Assembly: GCA_013214025.1 (NCBI GenBank)
Contig: JABSRN010000080.1
Coordinates: forward strand, 1 to 64,000
DNA length: 64,000 nucleotides
From: Polyangiaceae bacterium
GTDB taxonomy: Bacteria; Myxococcota_A; Polyangia; Polyangiales; Polyangiaceae
Direction of reading: 5' to 3'
Made by a program: the position numbers and the translations under genes. Under the pieces are notes generated by a model. The model was given only the letters and a program-made list of their open reading frames with translations. It had not been told where the DNA came from and ran no database searches. Position 1 is the first letter of the stretch, and each line of letters starts with the position of its first letter. This document shows, piece by piece, positions 228 to 51,013 of this stretch.

Positions 228-2303
228 TTAGGCTTCGATACTTCGCGCTTCGGCTTCTTCGATCTGTGCGAGGGCACCTGCTAAGGCATCCTTGGCGCGT
301 TCCAGCGACGCTTGGTCGTCGGTCCACTTCGTCTTCGCGTGACGGACCTTGGATTTCTCGGAGTCGAGCGACTCTTCCAGCTCGCTCGCGGTCTGCTTGG
401 CGGACGCGAGCTCACCTTCCAAGGAGGCAATTTTGGCGTCACGGCTGACTTCAGCCTCTTCCTTCTCGCTCGTGACCTTGTCCAAGGTCTCCGTAGTGAG
501 AGTCAGATCGGCCTTAGTCGCCTCGTGGGCATCGTCGTGCTCTTTGAGAACCCCTTCGTGGCGTTCCTTGATTTCCGCTTCGAGGCTTTCCAGTGCCGCT
601 TCGTGCTCGGCCTTGAGCTTGCCCATGCCGTCTTCGTTGGCGCGGTGAAGAGCAGCCAACTTGCTGTCGGTCTCTTTCTTGAGTTCCGTTTCTCGTTCTG
701 CGACGGCGGTCGCCTGGGCGGATTCCGCTTCTTCGCCGGCGGTCTTGAGGGCGTCGGCCTTGTCGGCTTCCGCCAGCTCCTCTGCCTCTTTGACGGCGTT
801 GGCTTTCGCTTCGGCGCCAGCTTCCTTGATAGCCTTGATGGCGGTTTCTTTGTCTTCGGCTGCCTTTTCGAGCGCCTCTTGATGTTCGATACGAGTGGAT
901 GCCTCTTTGGCGTCTCGCGTGGCGGATTCTTGGGCGGCGCTCTCTTTGGCTTCCGCCAGCTCGCCGGCCTTCGCTTCGACGTCGCTGTTCAATTTCTCCA
1001 CCTTGCGCTTGAAGTCATCGCCGCGCTTGACGGCTTGCTCCTTGTCGGCGCGAGAGGTTTCGAGAGAGGTCTCAATTTCGTGAAGATCTTTTTCGACCTC
1101 CAGTAGTTTCTCGTCGAGATCGGCTTTGATGCGATCAGCGGCTAGGCTGCCGTCTCGCAGAGTCAGGAGCTCCTTGTCCTTGTGGGTCAGCTGATCCCGC
1201 TGATCCAGGAGCTCCTTGTCCTTCTTGTTGAGAGCCTCTCGCAGATCGAGGAACTCTTTTGGCGTGCCGCCACCCTTGGCTGCGGCTGCGGCATTCGCCT
1301 TGGCTTCGTCGAGATCTCGATTGAGCTTTTTGACTTCGGCTTCGCGAGCCGACAGGGCTTTGCTGTCCGCCTTAGCTTGAGTCTCAAGATCCTCCATTGA
1401 GGCCTTGGTGTGGGCCAGTTGCTCTTCGAGTTGGGCTAGTTTCCGAGCATCGCCCGGTCGCATAGACCCTCCGGCGGGAGGAGCCGACGAGAGATTGGGA
1501 GCCTTCGGGGCTTTGGGCACCTTCGGCGGGGGGGGGGCGTCCGACGGGGGCATGGACGCCATCGCCTCGGCGTCGGCTGTGCTGGCAGCCGGCGCTTCGC
1601 TTTCGGGCTCCGCTTCGAGTTCCTTGAGCTCTTCGACCTCGTCCATCTCGATTTCGTCTTCGGCTTCCTCGTCTAGGACGGCCGCCTCGATCTCTTCGGC
1701 TACGCCGGCCCCGACGGAGGTCTCTTCTTCCTGGTCGGCTGCGGAGGACTCAGCTGAGTCGTCATCCAGCAGTGCGTCGAACGCGTCTTCGGTGAACTGG
1801 TCGACCTCGTCATCGACTTCGTCTTCCACTTCTTCGATGACTTCCACTTCTTCATCGATTTCTTCGATGTCGGCGTCCTCGAATTCGATGTCGTCATCGA
1901 TGAGAATCTCTTCTTCGTCATCGTCGCCGCCGGTCAGCTCGACGAACTTCTCGATCACCTTGGATAGATCCGCAAATGCGATGGGCTTGAGGATGTACTC
2001 TTCGGCGCGCGTTCGCAGACGCCGGTGCTGTTCGAAGGTCTCTTCCGTGGAGTCACTGCTCAGCAAAATGAGCGGCACACCTTTGAGGGACTTGTCTCGC
2101 TTGAGTTTATTGCAAACGGAGAAGCCGTTCATCTTGGGCAGCTCGATGGTGAGCAGGATCAGATCGGGTTTGTCAGCCGATGCCGCCGCTAGACCCTCTG
2201 CGGGATCCTCTACGGTCTTGACCTCACAACCGCGAGCTTCAAGATCACCTTTGAGTTCCGCCGCCAGTGCGGAATCGCTTTCGAATACGAGTACTTTTGC
2301 CAT
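228..2303 (-). CDS. FrzS-like protein: pseudo-receiver domain plus long coiled coil
   Basis: This 691-aa protein has an N-terminal response-regulator fold (about 1-125), an extremely acidic linker (about 125-235), a Pro/Ala segment (about 240-275), and then a coiled coil rich in Lys, Glu and Ala to the C-terminus. The order matches Myxococcus xanthus FrzS, a polar motility protein in which a receiver-like domain precedes a coiled coil. The receiver looks non-phosphorylatable: the phospho-acceptor Asp is Thr52 (context LLTIELPKMNG) and the acidic pair is Glu8-Ser9. The late Lys106 (ILKPI) is kept. It is cytoplasmic, with no signal peptide or membrane segment. A role in polarity or motility is inferred from architecture only. 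Large ORFs on the opposite strand are composition shadows. Confidence 0.8.
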   Translation of the reverse strand: MAKVLVFESDSALAAELKGDLEARGCEVKTVEDPAEGLAAASADKPDLILLTIELPKMNGFSVCNKLKRDKSLKGVPLILLSSDSTEETFEQHRRLRTRAEEYILKPIAFADLSKVIEKFVELTGGDDDEEEILIDDDIEFEDADIEEIDEEVEVIEEVEDEVDDEVDQFTEDAFDALLDDDSAESSAADQEEETSVGAGVAEEIEAAVLDEEAEDEIEMDEVEELKELEAEPESEAPAASTADAEAMASMPPSDAPPPPKVPKAPKAPNLSSAPPAGGSMRPGDARKLAQLEEQLAHTKASMEDLETQAKADSKALSAREAEVKKLNRDLDEAKANAAAAAKGGGTPKEFLDLREALNKKDKELLDQRDQLTHKDKELLTLRDGSLAADRIKADLDEKLLEVEKDLHEIETSLETSRADKEQAVKRGDDFKRKVEKLNSDVEAKAGELAEAKESAAQESATRDAKEASTRIEHQEALEKAAEDKETAIKAIKEAGAEAKANAVKEAEELAEADKADALKTAGEEAESAQATAVAERETELKKETDSKLAALHRANEDGMGKLKAEHEAALESLEAEIKERHEGVLKEHDDAHEATKADLTLTTETLDKVTSEKEEAEVSRDAKIASLEGELASAKQTASELEESLDSEKSKVRHAKTKWTDDQASLERAKDALAGALAQIEEAEARSIEA

Positions 2304-2457
2304 TCTCGGGGGATGCGCTTCCGTGGCTTCTACAGCGCGTTGTACGCCGTTATATGAAGCTCGCCACTACGATATAGACGGGCTCGGGTCGGGTCAAACG
2401 CACCAGGAGCTTTGCATCATGGATTCACCAAGTGCTTATTTGGCTTTGGACCGTCGT

Positions 2458-2475
2458 CCGCACCGAGTGGTGCGG
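2458..2475 (-). terminator. Hairpin downstream of hisIE
   Basis: A perfect 7-bp stem CCGCACC/GGTGCGG with a 4-nt loop lies about 35 nt after the hisIE stop in the 207-bp gap before the FrzS-like gene. A second GC-rich partial stem precedes it. No T-run follows, so termination strength is uncertain. Confidence 0.4.
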
Positions 2476-2510
2476 GCGCCCCGGTGCCCAAAAGCACAAT
2501 GGGGGCTCGG

Positions 2511-3170
2511 TCAGGACGAACGATTCGCCTTTTCGACGTGCCCTCCCACGCCGGAACGGCTTTCCAGTACTTTGATAACGTCGTGCAGCGCCACTCCTCG
2601 CAGTCGCAGTGCAACCATCAAGTGGTACAGGACGTCCGCTGCCTCGCTGGCGACTCGTCCGTTGTCCTCGGTCGCGATAGCGACGGAGAGTTCGTCAGCC
2701 TCTTCCCGGAGCTTTTCGCCAATTTTCTGTGCGCCGGCTTCGAGCAAGTAGCGCGTGTAGCTCTTGTCCGCCGTGCTCTTTTCTCTTTGAGCGATTTCCG
2801 CCTCGAGAAAATACAGGAATGAAGTCGCGTCTGCTTCGGTCTCCACCGATTCGCCATTTTCGTCCAGACGACGGAAGAAACAGGTGGGCCGGCCGGTGTG
2901 ACAGGAGGGGCCAGCGGGTTTTACTAGGACGATGAGCGTATCTTCGTCGCAGTCGGCATAGACCGCGCTGACGGCCATCGTGTTGCCGCTCGACTCGCCC
3001 TTGACCCAGATCTTGTTGCGAGAGCGGCTGAAAAATGTCGCGACTCCGGTCTCCAAGGTCCGGCTCAGGGCCTCCTTATTCATCCACGCCATCATGCGTA
3101 TTTGCCCGGTGCTTTGATCCTGGGAGATGGCAGGGATGAGCCCCTTAGAGTCGAATTTCAGTGTGGTCAC
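2511..3170 (-). CDS. hisIE: Bifunctional phosphoribosyl-AMP cyclohydrolase / phosphoribosyl-ATP pyrophosphatase
   Basis: This cytoplasmic enzyme catalyses histidine biosynthesis steps 2 and 3: hydrolysis of PR-ATP to PR-AMP, then ring opening of PR-AMP. The 219-aa length fits the HisI-HisE fusion. The HisI domain (about 1-110) carries MMAWMNKEAL, the metal-binding YADCDEDTL and the zinc Cys motif SCHTGRPTCFF. The HisE domain (about 120-210) has the helix KIGEKLREEADEL and AADVLYHLMVAL. No other his genes lie in the window, so the pathway is scattered. The gene is transcribed leftward and is divergent from the haem-motif cluster starting at 3387. Confidence 0.96.
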   Translation of the reverse strand: MTTLKFDSKGLIPAISQDQSTGQIRMMAWMNKEALSRTLETGVATFFSRSRNKIWVKGESSGNTMAVSAVYADCDEDTLIVLVKPAGPSCHTGRPTCFFRRLDENGESVETEADATSFLYFLEAEIAQREKSTADKSYTRYLLEAGAQKIGEKLREEADELSVAIATEDNGRVASEAADVLYHLMVALRLRGVALHDVIKVLESRSGVGGHVEKANRSS

Positions 3171-3386
3171 GGCGGCACCCTAACAGTCAGTCCCGGGATA
3201 TTTCGCCCTATCCGCTTCGTGTTTAGGGAACGGGGGTCAGCGACCCCGGGCTAACTCCCAAGTGGGGGACTCCCCCCCGCAGTAGGCTTTCTAAGTATAG
3301 GATATTACTTGTAATGCATGATGGCCCGAGACATGCATTCTCATCGGGCACCGAGCTGGGTCTGCTCCCAGTTAGTAAGGAATCCG
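3171..3386. promoter_or_regulatory. Divergent intergenic region with two GC hairpins and an AT-rich dyad
   Basis: The 216-bp gap lies between the leftward hisIE and the rightward haem-motif lipoprotein. It holds a GGGGTC/GACCCC hairpin (3233-3247), a GGGGG/CCCCC hairpin (3264-3276) and then an AT-rich stretch with the dyad ATTAC-tt-GTAAT (3304-3315). The dyad lies about 70 bp before the chosen start at 3387 and could be an operator or part of a promoter. The positions are direct observation; function is inferred. Confidence 0.35.
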
Positions 3387-5777
3387 ATGCGATTGAGCCA
3401 AAGACTAAACCTCCGACTGGGCAAGCTCCGCCCCCGAAAATTCACTAGCCAAGCGATTCTGCTCGCCGCCATGGGGCTGACCAGCCTCGGGCTGACAGTG
3501 AACTGCACCAGCGAAGCCGAGCCGGAGCAAGCCGGGGAAAACTTCGACCAGGTCGTCTACGTGGTCCGCCAGCACACGACGGTCGACGGCGACACGGTCA
3601 CCATCGATGTCGCTGGGGGCAACGGTCAGATGATGGACTACCTCCGCTACGTGCCGGGTGCCCGTATCGAGGTTCGAAACATTCGCACCGACGCCACCTT
3701 GAACATCCTGCAGGGCGATCGCTACTCCCAGGCCGACGTGGTCGGGCTCGATCTTAGCTTCGACGCGACCAGCGTGGTGTTCGGCATGAAGCTCGACGGC
3801 GGCGACCACTACCATGTGTATTCGGCGACCATCGCCCCCGGGGCTGACGGAGACCATGACGTCACCCAGTTGACCTACGGTCCCCAGGACGACTTGTTCC
3901 CGGTCTGGGTTGCCGGCGGCCGCATCGCCTTCGTGACGAACCAGGCTTACACAGAGATGGGAACTCGAGCAGACGAGTACAACCACTCCCGTAACGTCGG
4001 CCAGATCGCGACCATCGCTGACACCGGTGCTGTGAACCAGGAGGAGCGAACGCTCTGCTCTCAGAACCTGTCGAACACGGTCAACCTGTTTAGCATGGCC
4101 AACGGCCAAGTCGGTTTCTCCAGGTGGGAGCATTTGGAGAACGTTAACGATCTAAAAGCCTTCGCTATGAACCCGGACTGCACGCAGATGGTCGCTCTCA
4201 GCGGTCAGCACGGCAAGCCGGCTAACTCCCTGGGACAGATCACCGAGACGAATACGCCGAACGTGTTCGTGGCCGTCGGTTCTGACCGCGAAAATACAAT
4301 TCAATCCGGTGCGCTCATTCAAATCGATGCGCGCAACATGAACGATCCGTCGCGCTTCGACGAAGAGAACACAGCCTACACAGTGCTCACCCCGGCGGTT
4401 CCCCGCGGACGTGAGGACTCTCCCGTGGGCCGTTACCGGACGCCTGCCGTTCTGCCTGATGGACGCATTCTTGTGTCCTGGGCTGACGGTAGGGTTAACG
4501 ACCGTGACGAGCTATCGCTCACCGCACCGGACTTCGGTATCTACATTTACAATCCGGAGACGCGCGAAAATGAGCGGGTCGTCAACCATAGCGAGACCTG
4601 GGAGCTACACGCTCACGCGGTGGCCGTTCGTGCCGAGCCCCCCGTTCTCGCGCAGATTCAGAACTCCCAGGACCCCACTTTGCCGCTCACTATTGGTTCC
4701 GTGGACATTGCCAACACGTCGCTGGGTTCACTTCACGGCGAGACGGTCTCCGGGGCTCAGTTCGACGGCACGCCCATGGGCGAGGCTCTTCGACAGGCCG
4801 TTAAGGTCCGAATCATCGAGGGCTTCTCAAGCGAAGGCGCTCCCGGCGTGACCATGTTCGGCCTCACGATGGCTGAAGGCGCTGCCATCATCGGCGAGGC
4901 GACGGTCCGGGAGGACGGCTCGTGGGCGGCGGAAATCCCGCCCTTCATTCCAGTTCATCTGCAGGCTGTGGATGAGTTCGAACTCTCGATCCGAAACCAG
5001 ACGACCTGGATCCAGGGCATGCCCGGCGAATCCCGCATCTGCGGCGGTTGCCACGAAGAACGGACGGCTGCCAACACCCTGGCGGACCAGCAACTCACCG
5101 TGGCTATCAACCAAGTGGAAGACTTCATGGCTCCGGTGGCGCAACGTCTAGAGTTCCCCTGGACAGGCACCGACGGCTACGGCGGGGAGGCGGCGGCAGC
5201 CAATGAGATGCAGGCGCTGCTCACCGAAAAATGCGCGGGTTGTCACAACTCGACCACCAACGGCAACGTGCCTCAAGAGTACTACGAGCTCTCGATGGCA
5301 GCGGACGTCGGCAGCGATGCTCCGGCAACCACCTACCGCATTCCGCGTCTCGACCTCTCGGCCACGCCGGTGACAGTTGAGTACGACATGGAAGTCGCTA
5401 CCTGGCCGGCCGCCTACGTTTCGATTTTCTTCCCGGCAGCGCTGGAGATGGAGATGGGTAGTGAGGTGATCGGCAAGGTTCCGCCCATGTGGGGCATCCC
5501 CAGCGACGCTCGCGGCAGCGCGATTGTCGAAAAGCTCAACATTGCTTCTTCTTTGGACGCGAACCGTTACGCCTACGCGATGGGTGAGCCCTTCAGCAAC
5601 CCAGACATCGCCGGTGGGGTGCGCACCTCGCACCCCGAAGATCAGGGCGCGGAGTACGCTCTCACCCGCCAAGAGCGCCAGATGCTCATCCGAACCATCG
5701 ACATGGGCGCGCAGTACTACTCCCGTCAGAACAGCGGTTTTGAACCTTACACAGCAGATCCGCTGGGCACTTACTAG
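3387..5777 (+). CDS. Exported lipoprotein with beta-propeller and two CXXCH haem motifs (HzsA-middle-domain-like)
   Basis: The start at 3387 was chosen because TAAGGAA precedes it and the resulting N-terminus has a basic region, a hydrophobic core and a lipobox-like LTVNC; an upstream in-frame start at 3318 would add 23 unlikely residues. The 796-aa product has a central WD40/TolB-type propeller with repeated DGRI-type strands, such as LPDGRILVSWADGR. It then carries two c-type haem motifs, CGGCH and CAGCH, in the C-terminal third. The layout resembles the propeller-plus-cytochrome middle domain of hydrazine synthase alpha subunits, a domain also found in many non-anammox bacteria, so hydrazine chemistry is not implied. 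It probably acts in the periplasm or at the outer membrane. It is cotranscribed with the next two genes. Confidence 0.75.
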   Translation: MRLSQRLNLRLGKLRPRKFTSQAILLAAMGLTSLGLTVNCTSEAEPEQAGENFDQVVYVVRQHTTVDGDTVTIDVAGGNGQMMDYLRYVPGARIEVRNIRTDATLNILQGDRYSQADVVGLDLSFDATSVVFGMKLDGGDHYHVYSATIAPGADGDHDVTQLTYGPQDDLFPVWVAGGRIAFVTNQAYTEMGTRADEYNHSRNVGQIATIADTGAVNQEERTLCSQNLSNTVNLFSMANGQVGFSRWEHLENVNDLKAFAMNPDCTQMVALSGQHGKPANSLGQITETNTPNVFVAVGSDRENTIQSGALIQIDARNMNDPSRFDEENTAYTVLTPAVPRGREDSPVGRYRTPAVLPDGRILVSWADGRVNDRDELSLTAPDFGIYIYNPETRENERVVNHSETWELHAHAVAVRAEPPVLAQIQNSQDPTLPLTIGSVDIANTSLGSLHGETVSGAQFDGTPMGEALRQAVKVRIIEGFSSEGAPGVTMFGLTMAEGAAIIGEATVREDGSWAAEIPPFIPVHLQAVDEFELSIRNQTTWIQGMPGESRICGGCHEERTAANTLADQQLTVAINQVEDFMAPVAQRLEFPWTGTDGYGGEAAAANEMQALLTEKCAGCHNSTTNGNVPQEYYELSMAADVGSDAPATTYRIPRLDLSATPVTVEYDMEVATWPAAYVSIFFPAALEMEMGSEVIGKVPPMWGIPSDARGSAIVEKLNIASSLDANRYAYAMGEPFSNPDIAGGVRTSHPEDQGAEYALTRQERQMLIRTIDMGAQYYSRQNSGFEPYTADPLGTY

Positions 5778-43792: not shown

Positions 43793-44653
43793 GTGGCCGA
43801 TACCCAATTCTCCATGTTTCCCAAGGCTCCGGCCGAGGAGGAGAAAGAGCCGAGCTTGGCGTCGAGGCTGGGCTCTCGAATGTTCGAGCGGCAGCAGGAC
43901 ATGGCACGACTATTCGGCACTTTGATCGGGGCGATGTCATCCATCTTCAGCCCCGGCGACGCGGCTCGCACCGTGTCGGTGAGGGTGGCGATTCGGCAGA
44001 TCTTCTTTACGGGTGTGCAGGCGCTTCCGCTGGTGGGCGTCATCGCAGTGTTTGTTGGCGCCACCACGGTCATCCAAGTCCAGTTGATGGCGGCAGCCCT
44101 CCCGACAGACTTTCTGGGGCGCATCCTGGTTGCGATCATTCTCCGTGAACTCGCGCCATTCGCTACAGCTGTAGTGGTAGCGGGGCGTTCAGGAACTGCG
44201 ATGGCCACCGAGCTCGGCAACATGAAGGCTAACTCTGAGATCCTCGGACTGGCTTCCGTGGGCATCGATCCCCTCCGCTTTATCGTATTTCCTCGCATCG
44301 TAGGAACCGTGGTGAGCGTGCTGGCACTCACCGTTTACTTTGGGGCGATGGCTCTGCTAGCCAGTTATGCCCTCAGTCAGATGATGGGTAGCTCCAGTTT
44401 TTCGGCGCTCAGTGGAGCCTTCAGCGACGCGTTGGTGCCCGAAGACCTCGCGCTGTTTCTGATCAAGGGCACGGGTCTCGGAACGATGGTGGGCTGGCTC
44501 TGCTGCCACTACGGCCTCGAAGTCCAAACCTCACCGACGGAAGTCCCTCAGATGGCAAGCCACGCCGTGGTGATGACCCTGGTGGCTTGTGTCATCTTCA
44601 ACACGGTGGTGACCGCCGGCTTCTACTGGATCGTGGGGCCGCCGGTTCATTAG
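43793..44653 (+). CDS. MlaE-type ABC transporter permease
   Basis: The permease has the MlaE/DUF140 fold signature: GVQALPLVGVIAVFVGATTVIQV, PTDFLGRILVAIILRELAPF, VVVAGRSGTAMATELGNMKANSEI and GIDPLRFIVFPRI. A GTG at 43793 is the start; no better ATG lies nearby. MlaE works with the ATPase MlaF and a periplasmic MCE protein (MlaD) in phospholipid transport between membranes. An ATPase gene lies 99 bp downstream, but no MCE-domain gene follows. Confidence 0.92.
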   Translation: MADTQFSMFPKAPAEEEKEPSLASRLGSRMFERQQDMARLFGTLIGAMSSIFSPGDAARTVSVRVAIRQIFFTGVQALPLVGVIAVFVGATTVIQVQLMAAALPTDFLGRILVAIILRELAPFATAVVVAGRSGTAMATELGNMKANSEILGLASVGIDPLRFIVFPRIVGTVVSVLALTVYFGAMALLASYALSQMMGSSSFSALSGAFSDALVPEDLALFLIKGTGLGTMVGWLCCHYGLEVQTSPTEVPQMASHAVVMTLVACVIFNTVVTAGFYWIVGPPVH

Positions 44654-44734
44654 TAGAGGAATCCCGCAGGATTGTTACTCGGGAGCTGACATTGGTTTGG
44701 CTCCGGGGGCCCTCTAGTTCTATCCTCGCAGGCG

Positions 44735-45457
44735 GTGGCGTCAGGAATTACCATGAGGAGTGTATCGTTCCGGCACGGCGAGACGATCGTGCTGGATAAC
44801 ACGAGTCTTCATGTGCCCAAGGGCGCCATGTGCGTGGTGACGGGCGCCAATGCGTCGGGCAAGTCCACGCTGCTCTATGTCAGCGCCGGGCTGGTTAAAC
44901 CCGAGTCCGGCGACTGCACCTTGGGCGGCCACCGGGCAAACCTCAACCGACCCAGTGAATTGTTCCGCAAGGGGATCCGGCTTGGCCTGGTGTTTCAGGA
45001 GGGGGGCATGCTCTCGAATATGAATGCTTTGGCGAATGTCGCTTTGCCGCTTCGCTATCACGCTGATGTGCTGGGCATTTCGGTTCGCGAGATAGAGCAA
45101 CGAGCCCGGGCCGCGCTGGATCGCGTAGGCCTGACGCGCTCGGAGATGTACTCGTTGCCAGCGCATCTATCTTTCGGTGTACGGAAACGCCTGGCGCTGG
45201 CCCGCGCGATCGCGCTGAATCCGAATTTCTTCTTCTTTGACGACCCTGATGTGGGGTTGGACCAGGACACCGCCGCCATTGTGCAAGAAATATTGTGTCG
45301 CTATCGAGACGATCCGGAGGTGACGTGTTTGGTCGCGACCAATCGAGACATCTTGGTGGATCGACTCGGGGTACCGGGCTACACCCTCCAAAATGGACGT
45401 CTGTATGAACGGGTTCGCCCCCGATCGGTGCCTCCGAGTTCCCAACGCCTCGCGTAG
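44735..45457 (+). CDS. ABC transporter ATP-binding protein, degenerate MlaF-like
   Basis: This 240-aa protein has Walker A (GANASGKSTLL, about 38-48), a Q-loop (FQEGGML), the signature LSFGVRKRLALARA and Walker B FFFFDDPDVGLD. Three departures stand out: LSGG is LSFG, the catalytic Glu after Walker B is Asp170, and the H-loop His is Asn203 (VATNRDI). ATP hydrolysis is probably weakened. It is the ATPase partner expected for the MlaE-type permease just upstream. The GTG start at 44735 preserves the first beta-strand; an ATG at 44753 has an AGGAA site and is a competing start. Confidence 0.85.
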   Translation: MASGITMRSVSFRHGETIVLDNTSLHVPKGAMCVVTGANASGKSTLLYVSAGLVKPESGDCTLGGHRANLNRPSELFRKGIRLGLVFQEGGMLSNMNALANVALPLRYHADVLGISVREIEQRARAALDRVGLTRSEMYSLPAHLSFGVRKRLALARAIALNPNFFFFDDPDVGLDQDTAAIVQEILCRYRDDPEVTCLVATNRDILVDRLGVPGYTLQNGRLYERVRPRSVPPSSQRLA

Positions 45458-46102
45458 GTGGCTGGCGTCGTGAAAGGGCCGATACTCGATCCCGAGCTGG
45501 AAGCGGATCTACGACGCCGGGCCAAGATCGCCTTGCGAAAGCGTTACCGTGCGCTTCGCGCGTCGGTGCCGGCGCCTGCCCGCCTGATCCGTAGCCAACG
45601 CATCTGCGAATTCGCGGCTCAGCTTGAGGCCTTCCGCGCAGCCCGGTCGGTGGCCTTGTACTGGCCCGTTGCCGATAGCGGGGAGGTCGACCTAGGCGGT
45701 CTTGACGCTCTGGCGAGAGAGCAGGGCAAACAGGTTTATTATCCCTGTATGGCTCCCATCGACGGCGGATTCAGCACGGGGTTTCGCGCGACGGACAACG
45801 TGGAACAACTGCAGCTCCGTGGACAAAAGTTTTGCGAGCCGGAACCCACCGCTGCGCTGGCCACTCGCGATGACATCGATCTCGTATTTGTGCCCGCCCT
45901 GGCGATTGATCCCCGGGGCTACCGTTTGGGTTTTGGCTCAGGCTTCTATGACGTGACCTTGCCAGATCATTGCCCGCCCGCTTCCACTGTGGCGGTGGTC
46001 TTCGATTTTCAGATGGTGGGGGAGCTACCCAATGAACCCCATGACGTGCTGATTGACAGCTGGGTGACAGATCGCGGCAGCTACCAGCGTGCCGAGTCCT
46101 AG
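45458..46102 (+). CDS. 5-formyltetrahydrofolate cyclo-ligase
   Basis: The enzyme converts 5-formyl-THF plus ATP to 5,10-methenyl-THF in one-carbon metabolism. The 214-aa protein shows RKRYRALRASVP near the N-terminus, the middle strand ALYWPVADSGEV and the late RLGFGSGFYDVTL, the family's GxGxGYYD loop. A GTG starts immediately after the ABC ATPase stop, so it may be translationally coupled, although the functions are unrelated. Confidence 0.9.
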   Translation: MAGVVKGPILDPELEADLRRRAKIALRKRYRALRASVPAPARLIRSQRICEFAAQLEAFRAARSVALYWPVADSGEVDLGGLDALAREQGKQVYYPCMAPIDGGFSTGFRATDNVEQLQLRGQKFCEPEPTAALATRDDIDLVFVPALAIDPRGYRLGFGSGFYDVTLPDHCPPASTVAVVFDFQMVGELPNEPHDVLIDSWVTDRGSYQRAES

Positions 46103-46131: not shown

Positions 46132-46677
46132 TTATTCCGCGGTCGATTCGCAGCACTTCCGGCACATGCCGTATAGCTCGTGTCGGTGGCTCGTCACTTT
46201 GAAGCCATGACGCTGGGCGACGCGGTCTTGTAGCTCCTCGATCAGGGGTTCTTCGAACTCGGTAATGTGCCCACAGCGCTGACAAATCAAATGGTCGTGA
46301 TGGTGGGATTCGTCGGAGATCTCGTAGCGCGTATAGCCGTCGCCAAACTTTCTCTCCTCCACCACGCCGGCTTCGGTCAGCATCTTCATGGTGCGGTAAA
46401 CCGTGGCGTAACCGATATGTTTGTCGGTTTTTCGGACGGTTTCTAGGAGTTCGTCGAGGGTGCTGTGCTCGGGGGCGTTGATGATCGTCGTCAGAATCGC
46501 GCGGCGTTGCCCGGTGAGTCGGAGCCCTCGGCGGTCCATATACTCGGTGAGTTTGGTCCAGAGCGCGGCACCGGCGTCATGTCGGCTCTCTTGGGCGGCT
46601 GAGGAATCGGTGCTTGAGGAATCCGGCCTACCCGGCGGAGCCGAGGATGCGGTGGTCTTGCTGTCCCCGGTAGCCAC
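46132..46677 (-). CDS. fur: Fur-family metalloregulator
   Basis: The winged-helix DNA-binding domain (about 35-110) contains LRLTGQRRAILTTII, DELLETVRKTDKHIGYATVYRTM (quoted as KHIGYATVYRTM) and GVVEERKFGDGYTRYEI. The dimerisation domain has HHHDHLICQRCGHITEF and a C-terminal CRKC, giving two Cys pairs for structural zinc and a His-rich metal site. The Fur family includes Fur, Zur, Mur and PerR; which metal it senses cannot be read from this sequence. A Ser/Ala-rich N-terminal extension is present. It lies 34 bp after the degenerate P-type ATPase. Confidence 0.9.
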   Translation of the reverse strand: MATGDSKTTASSAPPGRPDSSSTDSSAAQESRHDAGAALWTKLTEYMDRRGLRLTGQRRAILTTIINAPEHSTLDELLETVRKTDKHIGYATVYRTMKMLTEAGVVEERKFGDGYTRYEISDESHHHDHLICQRCGHITEFEEPLIEELQDRVAQRHGFKVTSHRHELYGMCRKCCESTAE

Positions 46678-46711: not shown

Positions 46712-48895
46712 TCAAGGACGTCGAATCAGGGAAACAGCGGCTCCGGTGCCAAACAGGGTCGCCAGGGGCGCTAGTAGGGCGGGGGCGCCGAGAGCGACAG
46801 CTAAACAGGCGGTGGCGGCTGGGGCCCCAACAGCGAGCAATCCCAGACGCGCGTCCCGCCTCGAGCGCTTGGCTACTCGGATGGCTGATGCGGCGCCACG
46901 GACGTCGCTGGAGGCGAGCTGGACGTGATACTCGGCCCAGCTGGACCCAGCCACGCCCAGAACGACCGATACGTTTGCCGCCGCGAGGCTGGCGTCGTCC
47001 CTGGGACTGGTGCCGATGGCAGCGACGACGGCGCCGCTGTCGACGAGACGTGTGACCTCGGCTCCACGATCTCCAGGCAATACTTCGGGTCGCAGATGCT
47101 CGATGTCGACCGCACGGCCCAAGGCCTCGCAGGTATCGCGGGAATCCCCGGAGAGAAGGACGGGCTCGACCCCCACATCCAGCAGGTACTGTACGGCGGC
47201 TCGGGCTCCCGGGCGCAGTCCGTCCTGGAGACTCAGCATGCCCACCACTCGGCTACCGAGGGCGATCAACCGCACGCTGCGCCCCATGGCTTCATGCGAG
47301 TTGATGCGTGCCTCGACCGACGCGACACTTATTCGCTCGCGCAGCATCAGTCCACGCGTACCCGAGGTGAGAGCTTCTCCTGAAGAAGCGACCGCCGTGA
47401 CGCCGAGTCCCGGGATTCGATCGTGGCTGCGTACGGCGTCCGCGACGATGTCACGATCTCTCGCGGCCCGTTGAATTGCGATGCCGATTGGGTGTGTACT
47501 GCCTGCCTCTGCGCCCGCGAGTAGAGACAACACATTGTTGGCGCTATGTTTGCCGAAGGATTCGACCCCCGCCACCTCCGGTTCACCGAGGAGCAGAGTG
47601 CCGCGAGCGCAAAACACCGCGCTGGTGACGCGCCCGGCATGTTCGAAAGCTTCGGCCGTGCGGAACGCGATTCCCTTGCGTAGAGCCCGGAGCACTCCGG
47701 ACAGGGCGTGCACCGCGGCGATTTCCGCCACACCGGCTCCGGCGAAGGCACTGAAGGTCGCCAGCCCAGCAGCTGCGGCAACCACCCCATCGACCTCACC
47801 GAGGTAGGCGGTCCCCAGAGTGACGAGGGCGGCTAAGGCTCCCCCCCGCACAGCGCCGCGGCGACCCAATTGAGCCAGAGGGGCGCTGAGATCCGCCCGT
47901 CGATGGGGGTCGGTTACCAAACGCATCCAGGCGCAGTCGGTCCCTGTCCACGATGCCACCAGGCGCAGAGTCCCCGTTCGAATTTTAGCGCCGGCAGTGA
48001 GCGGGTCGCCGACGGTGCGGGCCTCAGTGGTTTCGGCGCCGCGGAACGGTGCGACCTCCGCGTCTCCCGCCACGACGGTCGCGTCCACGGGCACGATATC
48101 TCCGGCGCGCACGATGATCTCTTCGCCCGGTCGGATCTCGGTGGCTTCGACGGGGGCGGTTTCGGAGCCAAACACGCGGGTTGCGACACCGCTCAAGTCT
48201 CGGCGGATCTGTTCGCGTTCGACCTTGAGTGGTCGCGAGACCCGGCGAATGAGCCACTGCTGGGTGGCAACCGCGGCGATCACCACGCCCGTCGTCGCGA
48301 GTACGGCGCTAGTTTCTGGGTCTCCGCTGAGGCGAGCGTAGAGCGCCAAGGCGCACAGAAGCATCGGCCCGCCTAGCTCTACTGCCGGCTGTAGTTCGAC
48401 GGGATCCCGTTCACGTAGAACCGCCCGGGCGAGCAGCGCGCCCAGCCCGATGAGCGCGAGCGACAACCGTGCGTTGAGGGCACCGCTGGTGCTGCCGGCC
48501 AGGCTGAGGGCCAGGCAGAGCGAACCGCAGCCGGCGGCGCCCCCCTGCAGGATTTCGCTCAGATTGCGGGGCTCGGAGGCTAGCGTTTCATCGGCCGTAT
48601 CCAAGGGCGGCCCAGGCGACCACGATTCGACCGAATCCGGCAGCGGGAGATTGGCCGGATCGCTTCCGTGGCCGGGAGCTGCCGACGGGCGGTCCACCCC
48701 GAGCTCGAAGAGTACGGGGTCCGGTTCCGGTGGTTCATACTCGGTGCGGCAGGGTACGCTGCAAAAGTAGTGGAAGCGGTCGTCAAAGATGGCGACTCGC
48801 ATGGCCCGCAAAGGGTCCACGGGGCCATCGCAGCCCGAACATCTCCCGCCCTCGTTCCGCGGAAGATCCGCGGTGTCGAGAAAGCCTTCAGCCAT
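46712..48895 (-). CDS. Degenerate P1B-type ATPase with N-terminal zinc-ribbon (pseudo-ATPase)
   Basis: The 727-aa frame keeps the heavy-metal ATPase plan: an N-terminal Cys-x2-Cys...Cys-x3-Cys ribbon (CSGC and CSVPC, about 19-50), membrane helices, an actuator (GEEIIVRAGDIVPVDA), P and N domains (THPIGIA, LLSGDSRDT) and a final helix pair. The catalytic motifs are altered. The phospho-Asp of DKTGT is Cys429 (VFCARGT), the CPC of helix 6 is Ala-Gly-Ala (385-387), TGES is not recognisable, and GDGxND is GTSPRD (628-633). Metal transport by the normal mechanism is unlikely. It overlaps the argF stop by 8 bases and is followed by a Fur-type regulator. Confidence 0.85.
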   Translation of the reverse strand: MAEGFLDTADLPRNEGGRCSGCDGPVDPLRAMRVAIFDDRFHYFCSVPCRTEYEPPEPDPVLFELGVDRPSAAPGHGSDPANLPLPDSVESWSPGPPLDTADETLASEPRNLSEILQGGAAGCGSLCLALSLAGSTSGALNARLSLALIGLGALLARAVLRERDPVELQPAVELGGPMLLCALALYARLSGDPETSAVLATTGVVIAAVATQQWLIRRVSRPLKVEREQIRRDLSGVATRVFGSETAPVEATEIRPGEEIIVRAGDIVPVDATVVAGDAEVAPFRGAETTEARTVGDPLTAGAKIRTGTLRLVASWTGTDCAWMRLVTDPHRRADLSAPLAQLGRRGAVRGGALAALVTLGTAYLGEVDGVVAAAAGLATFSAFAGAGVAEIAAVHALSGVLRALRKGIAFRTAEAFEHAGRVTSAVFCARGTLLLGEPEVAGVESFGKHSANNVLSLLAGAEAGSTHPIGIAIQRAARDRDIVADAVRSHDRIPGLGVTAVASSGEALTSGTRGLMLRERISVASVEARINSHEAMGRSVRLIALGSRVVGMLSLQDGLRPGARAAVQYLLDVGVEPVLLSGDSRDTCEALGRAVDIEHLRPEVLPGDRGAEVTRLVDSGAVVAAIGTSPRDDASLAAANVSVVLGVAGSSWAEYHVQLASSDVRGAASAIRVAKRSRRDARLGLLAVGAPAATACLAVALGAPALLAPLATLFGTGAAVSLIRRP

Positions 48896-49805
48896 CGTCT
48901 TCGAGGGCCCAAGCGAGAGCGGCTTTTGCGGTGTGCAAACGAGCCTCTGCTTGATCCCACACGAAACTGCGCGGGCCGTCGATCACTTCGGCACTGATTT
49001 CTTCCCCGCGATGGGCCGGAAGGCAGTGAAGCACCATGACCTCAGGGCTGGCGACGTCAACGAGGACCTGGTTCACCTGCGTGCCAGCGAAGGCCGCCAG
49101 GCGTTGGGCGGCCTCTTCTTCTTGTCCCATGCTGGCGAAGACGTCGGTGCTGATGACGTCAGCTTCTCGGCAGGCCTCCTTGGGGTCCCGCAGAATGCTG
49201 ATCTTGCCGCCGCGTTCTTTGGCGAGGGAGACTTGCTTGGGATCGGGATCGTAACCCTCCGGGCACGCGAGACGCAGATCTAGCTGCAGTAGCCCGGCGG
49301 CTTCGATCCAACTATTCGCCATATTGTTGCCGTCGCCGACCCAGACGAATTGCAGCCCGTCCAGTTGCTTTCGTACGCCGCAGACGGTTTGCAGATCGGC
49401 GAGCAGCTGCATGGGGTGCCCGCTATCGGACAGGGCGTTGAGCACTGGGACACTCGAGTGCTCGGCCATGGATTCTAGGCGATCGTGCCCGAAGGTACGA
49501 AAGGTCACCCCGTGCACCATGCGAGACAAGACGCGGCTGGTATCGGAAATAGGCTCGCCCCGACCGAGTTGAATGGCAGAACTCGTCAGCGCAATGGGGT
49601 TCCCGCCCAGTTCGGCGACGGCGACCTCTAGGGACAGCCGGGTACGAGTTGACGCTTTCTCGAACACCAGGGCGATGGATTTCCCTGTGAGCGGTTTGGC
49701 GTGTTTGTCCGTACCCCGCACGGATTTGAAGTGGTCGGCGGAATCGAGCATGGCGAGCAGTCCGTCGCGCCCGAGATCTGAAAGGCTGAGTAGATGTCGT
49801 GTCAT
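48888..49805 (-). CDS. argF: Ornithine carbamoyltransferase
   Basis: ArgF makes citrulline from ornithine and carbamoyl phosphate in arginine synthesis. The 305-aa protein has the carbamoyl-phosphate loop STRTRLSLEVA (about 53), FRTFGHDRLE, and the ornithine-side HCLPAHRGEEIS (about 265). Its ATG overlaps the argD stop by 4 bases, and its 3' end overlaps the P-type ATPase start, so all three are translationally coupled. Confidence 0.97.
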   Translation of the reverse strand: MTRHLLSLSDLGRDGLLAMLDSADHFKSVRGTDKHAKPLTGKSIALVFEKASTRTRLSLEVAVAELGGNPIALTSSAIQLGRGEPISDTSRVLSRMVHGVTFRTFGHDRLESMAEHSSVPVLNALSDSGHPMQLLADLQTVCGVRKQLDGLQFVWVGDGNNMANSWIEAAGLLQLDLRLACPEGYDPDPKQVSLAKERGGKISILRDPKEACREADVISTDVFASMGQEEEAAQRLAAFAGTQVNQVLVDVASPEVMVLHCLPAHRGEEISAEVIDGPRSFVWDQAEARLHTAKAALAWALEDDG

Positions 49806-51013
49806 GACAATTCTCCAAGTACCTGGTCTACGATGTCGACGCCCTCACCTAATTGTTCGGTCGTGACCGTGAGACAGGGCGAGAAGCGCAGAGATTGGCC
49901 GCCCGCAAGAGTGAGCAGCAGCCCCTTCTCGCGGAGAGATCCGAGCACGCTACGGGCGTCTACGGTGTCGGCCAGTTCGACGGCTTGTAGGAGTCCAATG
50001 CCCCGGGTGGCCGCAACGTGCTTGGGGTGTTTTTTCTGAAGCGCAGTGAGCTTCGTCGCTAGCCACTCGCCCTTCGTTTTGGCCTGACCCATCAGGTCGT
50101 CCTTTTCCAAGGTTCGCAGCACCGCGAGGGCGACAGCTGAGCACAGCGGGTTCCCGCCAAAGGTAGAGCCGTGGCTGCCCGGGGGCAGGGCGTCGGCAAG
50201 TTTTTCCTGACACAACATGGCGCCGATGGGCACGCCGCCGCCGAGGGCTTTGGCCAGAGCGACCGCGTCCGCTTTGACCCCGAAGTGGTGAGCGGCGAGG
50301 AAGGAGCCGGTGCGCCCGACACCCGTCTGCACTTCGTCAAAAATTAACAGTGCGCCGTGATCGTCGGCGAGCTTTCGGAGCGTCGCTAGAAAACCATCGG
50401 GTGCGGGACGGACACCCCCTTCGCCTTGAATCGGCTCGACGAGAATGGCGGCGACATCGGGGCCCATCGCAGCGCTTACCGCATCGGCATCGCCGAAGGG
50501 CACATGGGTCACGCCGCCGATGGGACCGAAGCCCTCGCGGTATCCGGCCTGACCGGTCGCCGTCAGTGCGCCGAGGGTACGACCGTGAAATGATTTTTCG
50601 AAGGCGATGACGCGGTGGCGGTTCTTGTCACCCTGATTCCAAAAATGGCGACGGCTCAACTTCAGCAATGCTTCGATGGCCTCCGTTCCGGAATTGCAAA
50701 ATAGCGCGCGGCTCATGCCGGCGAGTCGACAGAGGACCTCTGCCAGCTGGAGGTTTTTGTCCGTGTAGTAGTAGTTGGACACGTGCATGAGGCTCGCTGC
50801 CTGATCGCTGATCGCAGAGACGATGGCGGGATGGGCGTGCCCCAAGGTGTTGACGGCAATGCCGGCGTACAGGTCCAGGTAGCGCTTGCCGCTCAGATCC
50901 CACATCTCCGCACCATCGCCGCGGACCATCACGAGCTCAGGCTGGCGATAATTCGGGTACAGGTTTTTGGACAGCGGGAGGAGCTCCGCGCTGTTCGAAT
51001 CTGTGGCTGTCAT
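49802..51013 (-). CDS. argD: Acetylornithine aminotransferase
   Basis: ArgD is a PLP enzyme converting N-acetylglutamate semialdehyde to N-acetylornithine. The 403-aa class III aminotransferase has ALFCNSGTEAIEALLKLSRR (quoted as LFCNSGTEAIEALLK), the cofactor-binding LLIFDEVQTGVGRTG and the Schiff-base lysine in ALAKALGGGVPIG. It sits at the head of the argD-argF pair, 59 bp after a HAD phosphatase gene. No promoter for it was evident in that gap. Confidence 0.95.
   Translation of the reverse strand: MTATDSNSAELLPLSKNLYPNYRQPELVMVRGDGAEMWDLSGKRYLDLYAGIAVNTLGHAHPAIVSAISDQAASLMHVSNYYYTDKNLQLAEVLCRLAGMSRALFCNSGTEAIEALLKLSRRHFWNQGDKNRHRVIAFEKSFHGRTLGALTATGQAGYREGFGPIGGVTHVPFGDADAVSAAMGPDVAAILVEPIQGEGGVRPAPDGFLATLRKLADDHGALLIFDEVQTGVGRTGSFLAAHHFGVKADAVALAKALGGGVPIGAMLCQEKLADALPPGSHGSTFGGNPLCSAVALAVLRTLEKDDLMGQAKTKGEWLATKLTALQKKHPKHVAATRGIGLLQAVELADTVDARSVLGSLREKGLLLTLAGGQSLRFSPCLTVTTEQLGEGVDIVDQVLGELS

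Follow-up and report, generated by a model that had tools for sequence, protein, structure and literature searches.

P-type ATPases are known from textbooks as active pumps. The locus described here raises the question of what such a pump becomes, and what it may be doing, once its catalytic motifs have been replaced. The window (the whole stretch of DNA that was analysed, 64,000 nucleotides) carries on its minus strand a gene that had been interpreted, from the letters alone, as a heavy-metal P1B-type ATPase repurposed after loss of its catalytic residues. We examined the gene, its relatives and its surroundings.

An intact reading frame with a P1B fold

46712..48895, minus strand: pseudo-P1B-ATPase gene (727-aa open reading frame, AlphaFold2 model, structural match to CopA)

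The frame begins with ATG and, as had been claimed, runs through 727 codons without an internal stop. In Pfam, the 727-aa protein scores above the cut-offs for both the E1-E2 ATPase and the HAD hydrolase domains. Against the NCBIfam model for heavy-metal P-type ATPases (TIGR01525) it reaches 185.7 bits and does not meet the cut-off of 346.25 bits. An AlphaFold2 model built from a 44-member family alignment (pLDDT 91.2, pTM 0.82; low confidence in the linker at residues 60-107 and in the first 13 residues) has the A, P and N domains and the eight membrane helices by which we recognise a P1B fold. The P/N head of the model superimposes on nucleotide-bound Archaeoglobus fulgidus CopA with a Z score of 28.7 and an rmsd of 1.5 Å over 264 residues at 30% identity, and the whole chain matches CopA (7R0G) with a Z score of 26.4 over 608 residues. 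The recognisable P1B fold of the sequence-only reading is therefore borne out by the predicted model and its structural match.

Catalytic and transport motifs are replaced across the family

We placed the motifs by alignment with the solved CopA structure and counted their states in 95 non-redundant relatives and in 13 canonical controls that have full DKTGT, CPC and GDGxND motifs.

48035..48043, minus strand: actuator TGE replaced by RGA, residues 285-287 (CopA alignment; SGE in CopA)
47735..47743, minus strand: metal-transport CPC replaced by AGA, residues 385-387 (CopA alignment)
47597..47611, minus strand: DKTGT replaced by CARGT, residues 429-433 (alignment and relatives)
46997..47014, minus strand: GDGxND replaced by GTSPRD, residues 628-633 (aligned with GDGIND of CopA)

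Three of these replacements, CARGT with Cys429 at the phosphorylation site, AGA at the CPC position and GTSPRD, had been named beforehand, and the CopA alignment puts all three where they were said to be. The fourth, TGES, had been called unrecognisable; the site can in fact be placed, with Ala standing for the catalytic Glu. The phosphorylated Asp and the CPC motif occur in none of the 95 relatives and in all 13 controls. Likewise, the Glu of TGE is missing from all 95 relatives (Ala in 77) and present in 13 of 13 controls.

Within the P domain of the family, Arg or His occupies former catalytic positions. The Thr of DKTGT is Arg431 in 83 of 95 relatives (some families lack Arg there), the P-domain Lys is Arg610 in 86 and the first Asp of GDGxND, position 629, is His or Arg in 79, the window protein having Thr instead. 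Such swaps, read from the alignment only, turn an acidic Mg2+/phosphate site into a basic one, and by inference the resulting pocket may hold an anion. G432, T433, D558, G583 and D633 are retained, D633 being the last Asp of GDGxND and kept in 91 of 95 relatives. Apart from this Asp, the alignments show that nothing remains of the residues with which pumps form and remove the phosphoenzyme, bind Mg2+ or transport metal. No sequence evidence could make the loss of catalysis more certain, although the absence of activity is itself an inference. With catalytic motifs lost and a fold retained under purifying selection (see below), the protein qualifies as a pseudoenzyme.

The gene accompanies arginine biosynthesis genes

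49802..51013, minus strand: argD, acetylornithine aminotransferase (named from sequence; upstream in the same operon)
48888..49805, minus strand: argF, ornithine carbamoyltransferase (overlaps the start of the pseudo-P1B gene by 8 nt)
46132..46677, minus strand: Fur-family regulator (PF01475, E=3.5e-37)

The 8-nt overlap substantiates the coupling to argF that had been noticed earlier; argD and argF themselves overlap by 4 nt. The Fur-family regulator said to follow the gene does so, 34 nt downstream on the same strand. In Polyangiaceae, the gene comes after argD or argD-argF, the ends frequently overlapping, and a Fur-family gene is often next. In other families of Polyangiales it precedes argH-lysA (confirmed with NCBIfam) or is divergent from argH. 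Among 94 representative loci, argD, argF or argH adjoins the gene in 77 of the 84 copies that could be assessed; at one further locus, where the ORF is split, argD lies about 1 kb away. A fur gene is found within 900 bases in 33 copies (26 on the same strand, 7 on the opposite one), and its occurrence is patchy. None of the 13 canonical P1B loci showed argD, argF, argH or fur markers in their flanks, mostly of 1.5 kb. In a Labilithrix-like subgroup (loci L040, L043, L131, L132, L134 and others), the place of fur directly downstream is taken by one or two long ORFs (about 900-1300 aa) that belong to a recurring cluster, c2.

The linkage to arginine genes is strong but is not an independent statistic because gene order is inherited; it may stem from a few insertion events and persist without functional coupling. 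We looked in related orders for a single ancestral argD-argF-X-argH cluster and, within 1.5 kb flanks, found neither argD nor argF just upstream of argH, although argH-lysA is common there. Two separate associations within Polyangiales are therefore plausible, though not shown. The order-wide arginine linkage is the strongest functional lead that we have, and it goes beyond what had been read from the window.

Ribbon and nucleotide pocket are kept while the membrane part varies

48740..48847, minus strand: TRASH-like four-Cys ribbon, residues 17-52, with C19, C22, C45 and C49 (relatives and weak Pfam matches)
47402..47509, minus strand: N-domain adenine pocket, residues 463-498, with E463, H468, G496 and G498 (relatives and CopA structural match)

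All four cysteines of the N-terminal ribbon are present, in agreement with the earlier claim that it is kept, and each is found in 87-88 of the 88-89 relatives whose sequence extends this far. Their spacing, CxxC...CxxxC, satisfies the four-ligand pattern of the TRASH/YHS domain. The label itself rests on weak Pfam matches (TRASH, DUF7576 and zf-FCS): the window protein scores 14.7 bits against DUF7576, for which the cut-off is 27, and TRASH_HVO_1752_C matches 7 of 44 family members with a best E value of 2.3e-5. The adenine pocket comprises E463 (81 of 95 relatives), H468 (67), G496 (92) and G498 (93), which we take to be the adenine-recognising positions of CopA. Conservation among relatives does not extend to Ser466 of the ATP-site motif.

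We then compared conservation between the family and working pumps, a comparison that is only indicative given the small control set and differing divergence. In the N domain, the family keeps 12 of 17 columns conserved in pumps. In the three membrane blocks it keeps 0 of 11, 0 of 24 and 1 of 24, and among the columns lost are those of CPC and of Y, N and S in M5/M6. Mean conservation in the N and P domains is 0.62-0.69 in the family versus 0.63-0.73 in pumps; in the membrane parts it is 0.43-0.49 versus 0.64-0.81. As judged from these alignments, constraint on the membrane pathway appears to have collapsed.

This pattern bears on two alternatives. The cysteine ribbon might work alone, as a metal buffer or chaperone that delivers or stores metal, with the remainder an inert membrane anchor. 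The near-invariant ribbon cysteines and the 33 adjoining fur genes speak for such a role, but an inert anchor has no need of N and P domains as constrained as those of working pumps, and we regard it as unlikely. Less likely still is an ATP-independent channel or carrier that uses the P-type membrane fold to move, for example, ornithine, arginine or a polyamine: the arginine-gene linkage and the membrane helices retained in the model would fit, but the membrane segments are less conserved than any other structured part of the protein and only 1 of 59 pump-conserved membrane columns survives.

Neither a new nucleophile nor a partner pump is likely to account for the family

A third alternative holds that the protein is still an enzyme whose nucleophile has moved or changed, with Cys429 in place of Asp. 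When homologues were checked for this substitution, the loss of Asp held in 95 of 95 relatives and the Cys itself in only 67; Ser is found in 12 and the rest are mixed, with Leu, Ala, Asn and Val among them. Cys is thus the commonest residue there, but the position is variable, which rules out Cys429 as a conserved nucleophile. With the Mg2+-binding Asp turned into His or Arg, the Lys into Arg and the TGE Glu missing throughout, we give any altered enzyme very little credence.

The protein could also act as partner to an active P1B pump of its own cell and regulate it. Most relatives' genomes do encode canonical P1B pumps, but none was found in the window genome (97% complete) or in genome G169 (98% complete), and the gene sits with arginine genes rather than pumps. 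Two near-complete genomes without such a pump imply that no partner pump is needed; dependence on one is ruled out, and a partner role of any kind seems highly improbable. The only other match in the window genome is a long P-type ATPase on a different contig. Outside the window, locus L081 (G000 contig 129, ~44152-45987) holds an ORF for a P-type ATPase, about 1300-1500 aa long, whose C-terminal half carries, by eye, DKTGT, TGES and GDGAND. Its N-terminal half resembles, also by eye, a second, degenerate P-type module with VVLDSDVV at the expected place of DKTGT, a two-module layout that presumably recalls mycobacterial CtpI.

A single clade of Polyangiales under purifying selection

A search of 59 related genomes returned full-length relatives at 30-55% identity. 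Counting pieces at contig edges, 53 of the 59 carry a copy. Twelve apparent absences and two edge fragments were re-checked; several turned out to be contig-end pieces or copies that have diverged, argH lying next to two of them, and in six genomes the gene seems to be genuinely absent. The relatives include Sorangium, Polyangium, Minicystis, Byssovorax and Labilithrix, and the taxon records, which cover part of the set, point in every case to Polyangiales/Polyangiaceae or to myxobacterial metagenome-assembled genomes. Polyangiales are an order of soil bacteria. When a profile built from 44 family members was run against the class and the phylum, scores of about 500 bits and above occurred only within this order, and no match outside it exceeded 326 bits. 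The ten best matches of the class scan, examined as possible occurrences beyond Polyangiales, proved to be canonical pumps.

A tree that set 23 family members against 16 canonical P-type ATPases, E. coli CopA, ZntA and KdpB among them, separated the family as a single clade with 100/100 support. Between close pairs, dN/dS is 0.07-0.30, which indicates purifying selection and therefore that selection maintains the protein. In the sample searched, this is an ancient, vertically kept pseudo-P1B family confined to Polyangiales. Canonical motifs in relatives, or a broken gene in sister strains, would have refuted the sequence-only reading; that refutation fails, DKTGT and CPC being absent from the relatives. 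A decaying pseudogene or a sequencing artefact would explain why every catalytic motif is lost, but it is refuted by clade-wide conservation, by the dN/dS values and by reading frames that stay open in almost every relative, across independent assemblies.

At locus L111 (positions 2291-4795, a Sorangium metagenome-assembled genome) the gene appears as two neighbouring ORFs; an assembly or sequencing frameshift is the probable cause, because sister Sorangium copies are intact. Two further copies beside argH, L219 (G037, contig 30) and L220 (G054, contig 248), are very divergent or at contig edges. DKTGT was not found in either, and their divergence suggests faster evolution of the protein in some lineages.

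Discussion

The family shares with the copper pump CopA (A. fulgidus 3A1C, 3A1D and 3A1E; 7R0G) the whole fold, with A, P and N domains and eight helices, as well as the E-H-GxG adenine pocket. Unlike CopA, it lacks DKTGT, TGE, CPC, GDGxND and the copper-site residues of the membrane, and it bears an N-terminal TRASH-like ribbon. The ribbon itself resembles TRASH/YHS metal-binding domains such as L24e and the YHS domain of Mycobacterium phlei adenylyl cyclase: it has the CxxC...CxxxC arrangement and the four-Cys ligand set described for L24e, a Cd2+-bound structure of which is cited in PMC4626032. The window protein's ribbon differs in falling below the Pfam cut-off and in being fused to a dead pump rather than to an active enzyme or a ribosomal protein.

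Degenerate P-type proteins are already known in eukaryotes. Human TMEM94/ERMA has, like our family, a P-type-like architecture without TGES, and its structure argues against a P-type phosphorylation cycle; its transport role is disputed (PMC12134183). It differs in having ten helices, in residing in the eukaryotic ER and in retaining Asp (D417) at the phosphorylation site (PMC12134183). Plasmodium GCβ (PfGCβ) likewise contains a degenerate P-type domain with most signature residues lost, but of the P4 class, fused to a guanylate cyclase and in a eukaryotic parasite (PMC6592433). In the literature searched, which covered few subscription papers, neither a bacterial P1B pseudoenzyme family nor an arginine link turned up.

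The clade-wide loss of catalysis, intact frames, purifying selection and retained ribbon and nucleotide-pocket residues support the earlier proposal that the pump was repurposed, and suggest that its new role lies in regulation or binding. A membrane metal sensor or scaffold, the example given in that proposal, is a putative role that the anatomy would fit. A regulatory pseudo-ATPase explains the family better than a metal chaperone, a passive carrier, an altered nucleophile or a pump partner would. Most likely, the protein is anchored in the membrane, responds to metal and nucleotide, and acts as a regulator or scaffold linked to arginine biosynthesis, an inference from anatomy and gene order only. 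The eight helices would serve only as a membrane anchor, the four-Cys ribbon would bind a transition metal, and the N domain would bind a nucleotide that it could not hydrolyse. Arg431, Arg610 and His/Arg629, in place of the acidic site, may bind an anion, for instance the phosphates of that nucleotide. On this view the head would alternate between open and closed states and so signal the state of metal and energy to a partner protein. The likeliest partner is encoded in the same operon (ArgD/ArgF or ArgH), and the Fur-family regulator is a further possibility. Ligand, partner and direction of regulation are inferred. A dead P1B family whose metal- and nucleotide-responsive head reports to an operon partner is our best explanation, one that we hold to be somewhat more likely than not but far from secure, since all binding is inferred. 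A bolder version is possible but doubtful: a membrane integrator that senses metal through the ribbon and a nucleotide or other phosphate-bearing ligand through the basic pocket, in which no Mg2+ would be bound, and that adjusts arginine biosynthesis directly throughout the order. If true, it would be the pseudo-ATPase counterpart of pseudokinase regulation.

The P-type ATPase domain matches make proteins of this family easily mistaken for heavy-metal pumps, a warning for annotation. With fold, ribbon and nucleotide pocket but no catalytic cycle, the family offers a natural test of a P-type head that lacks phosphorylation, and its steady linkage to arginine genes makes its function directly testable.
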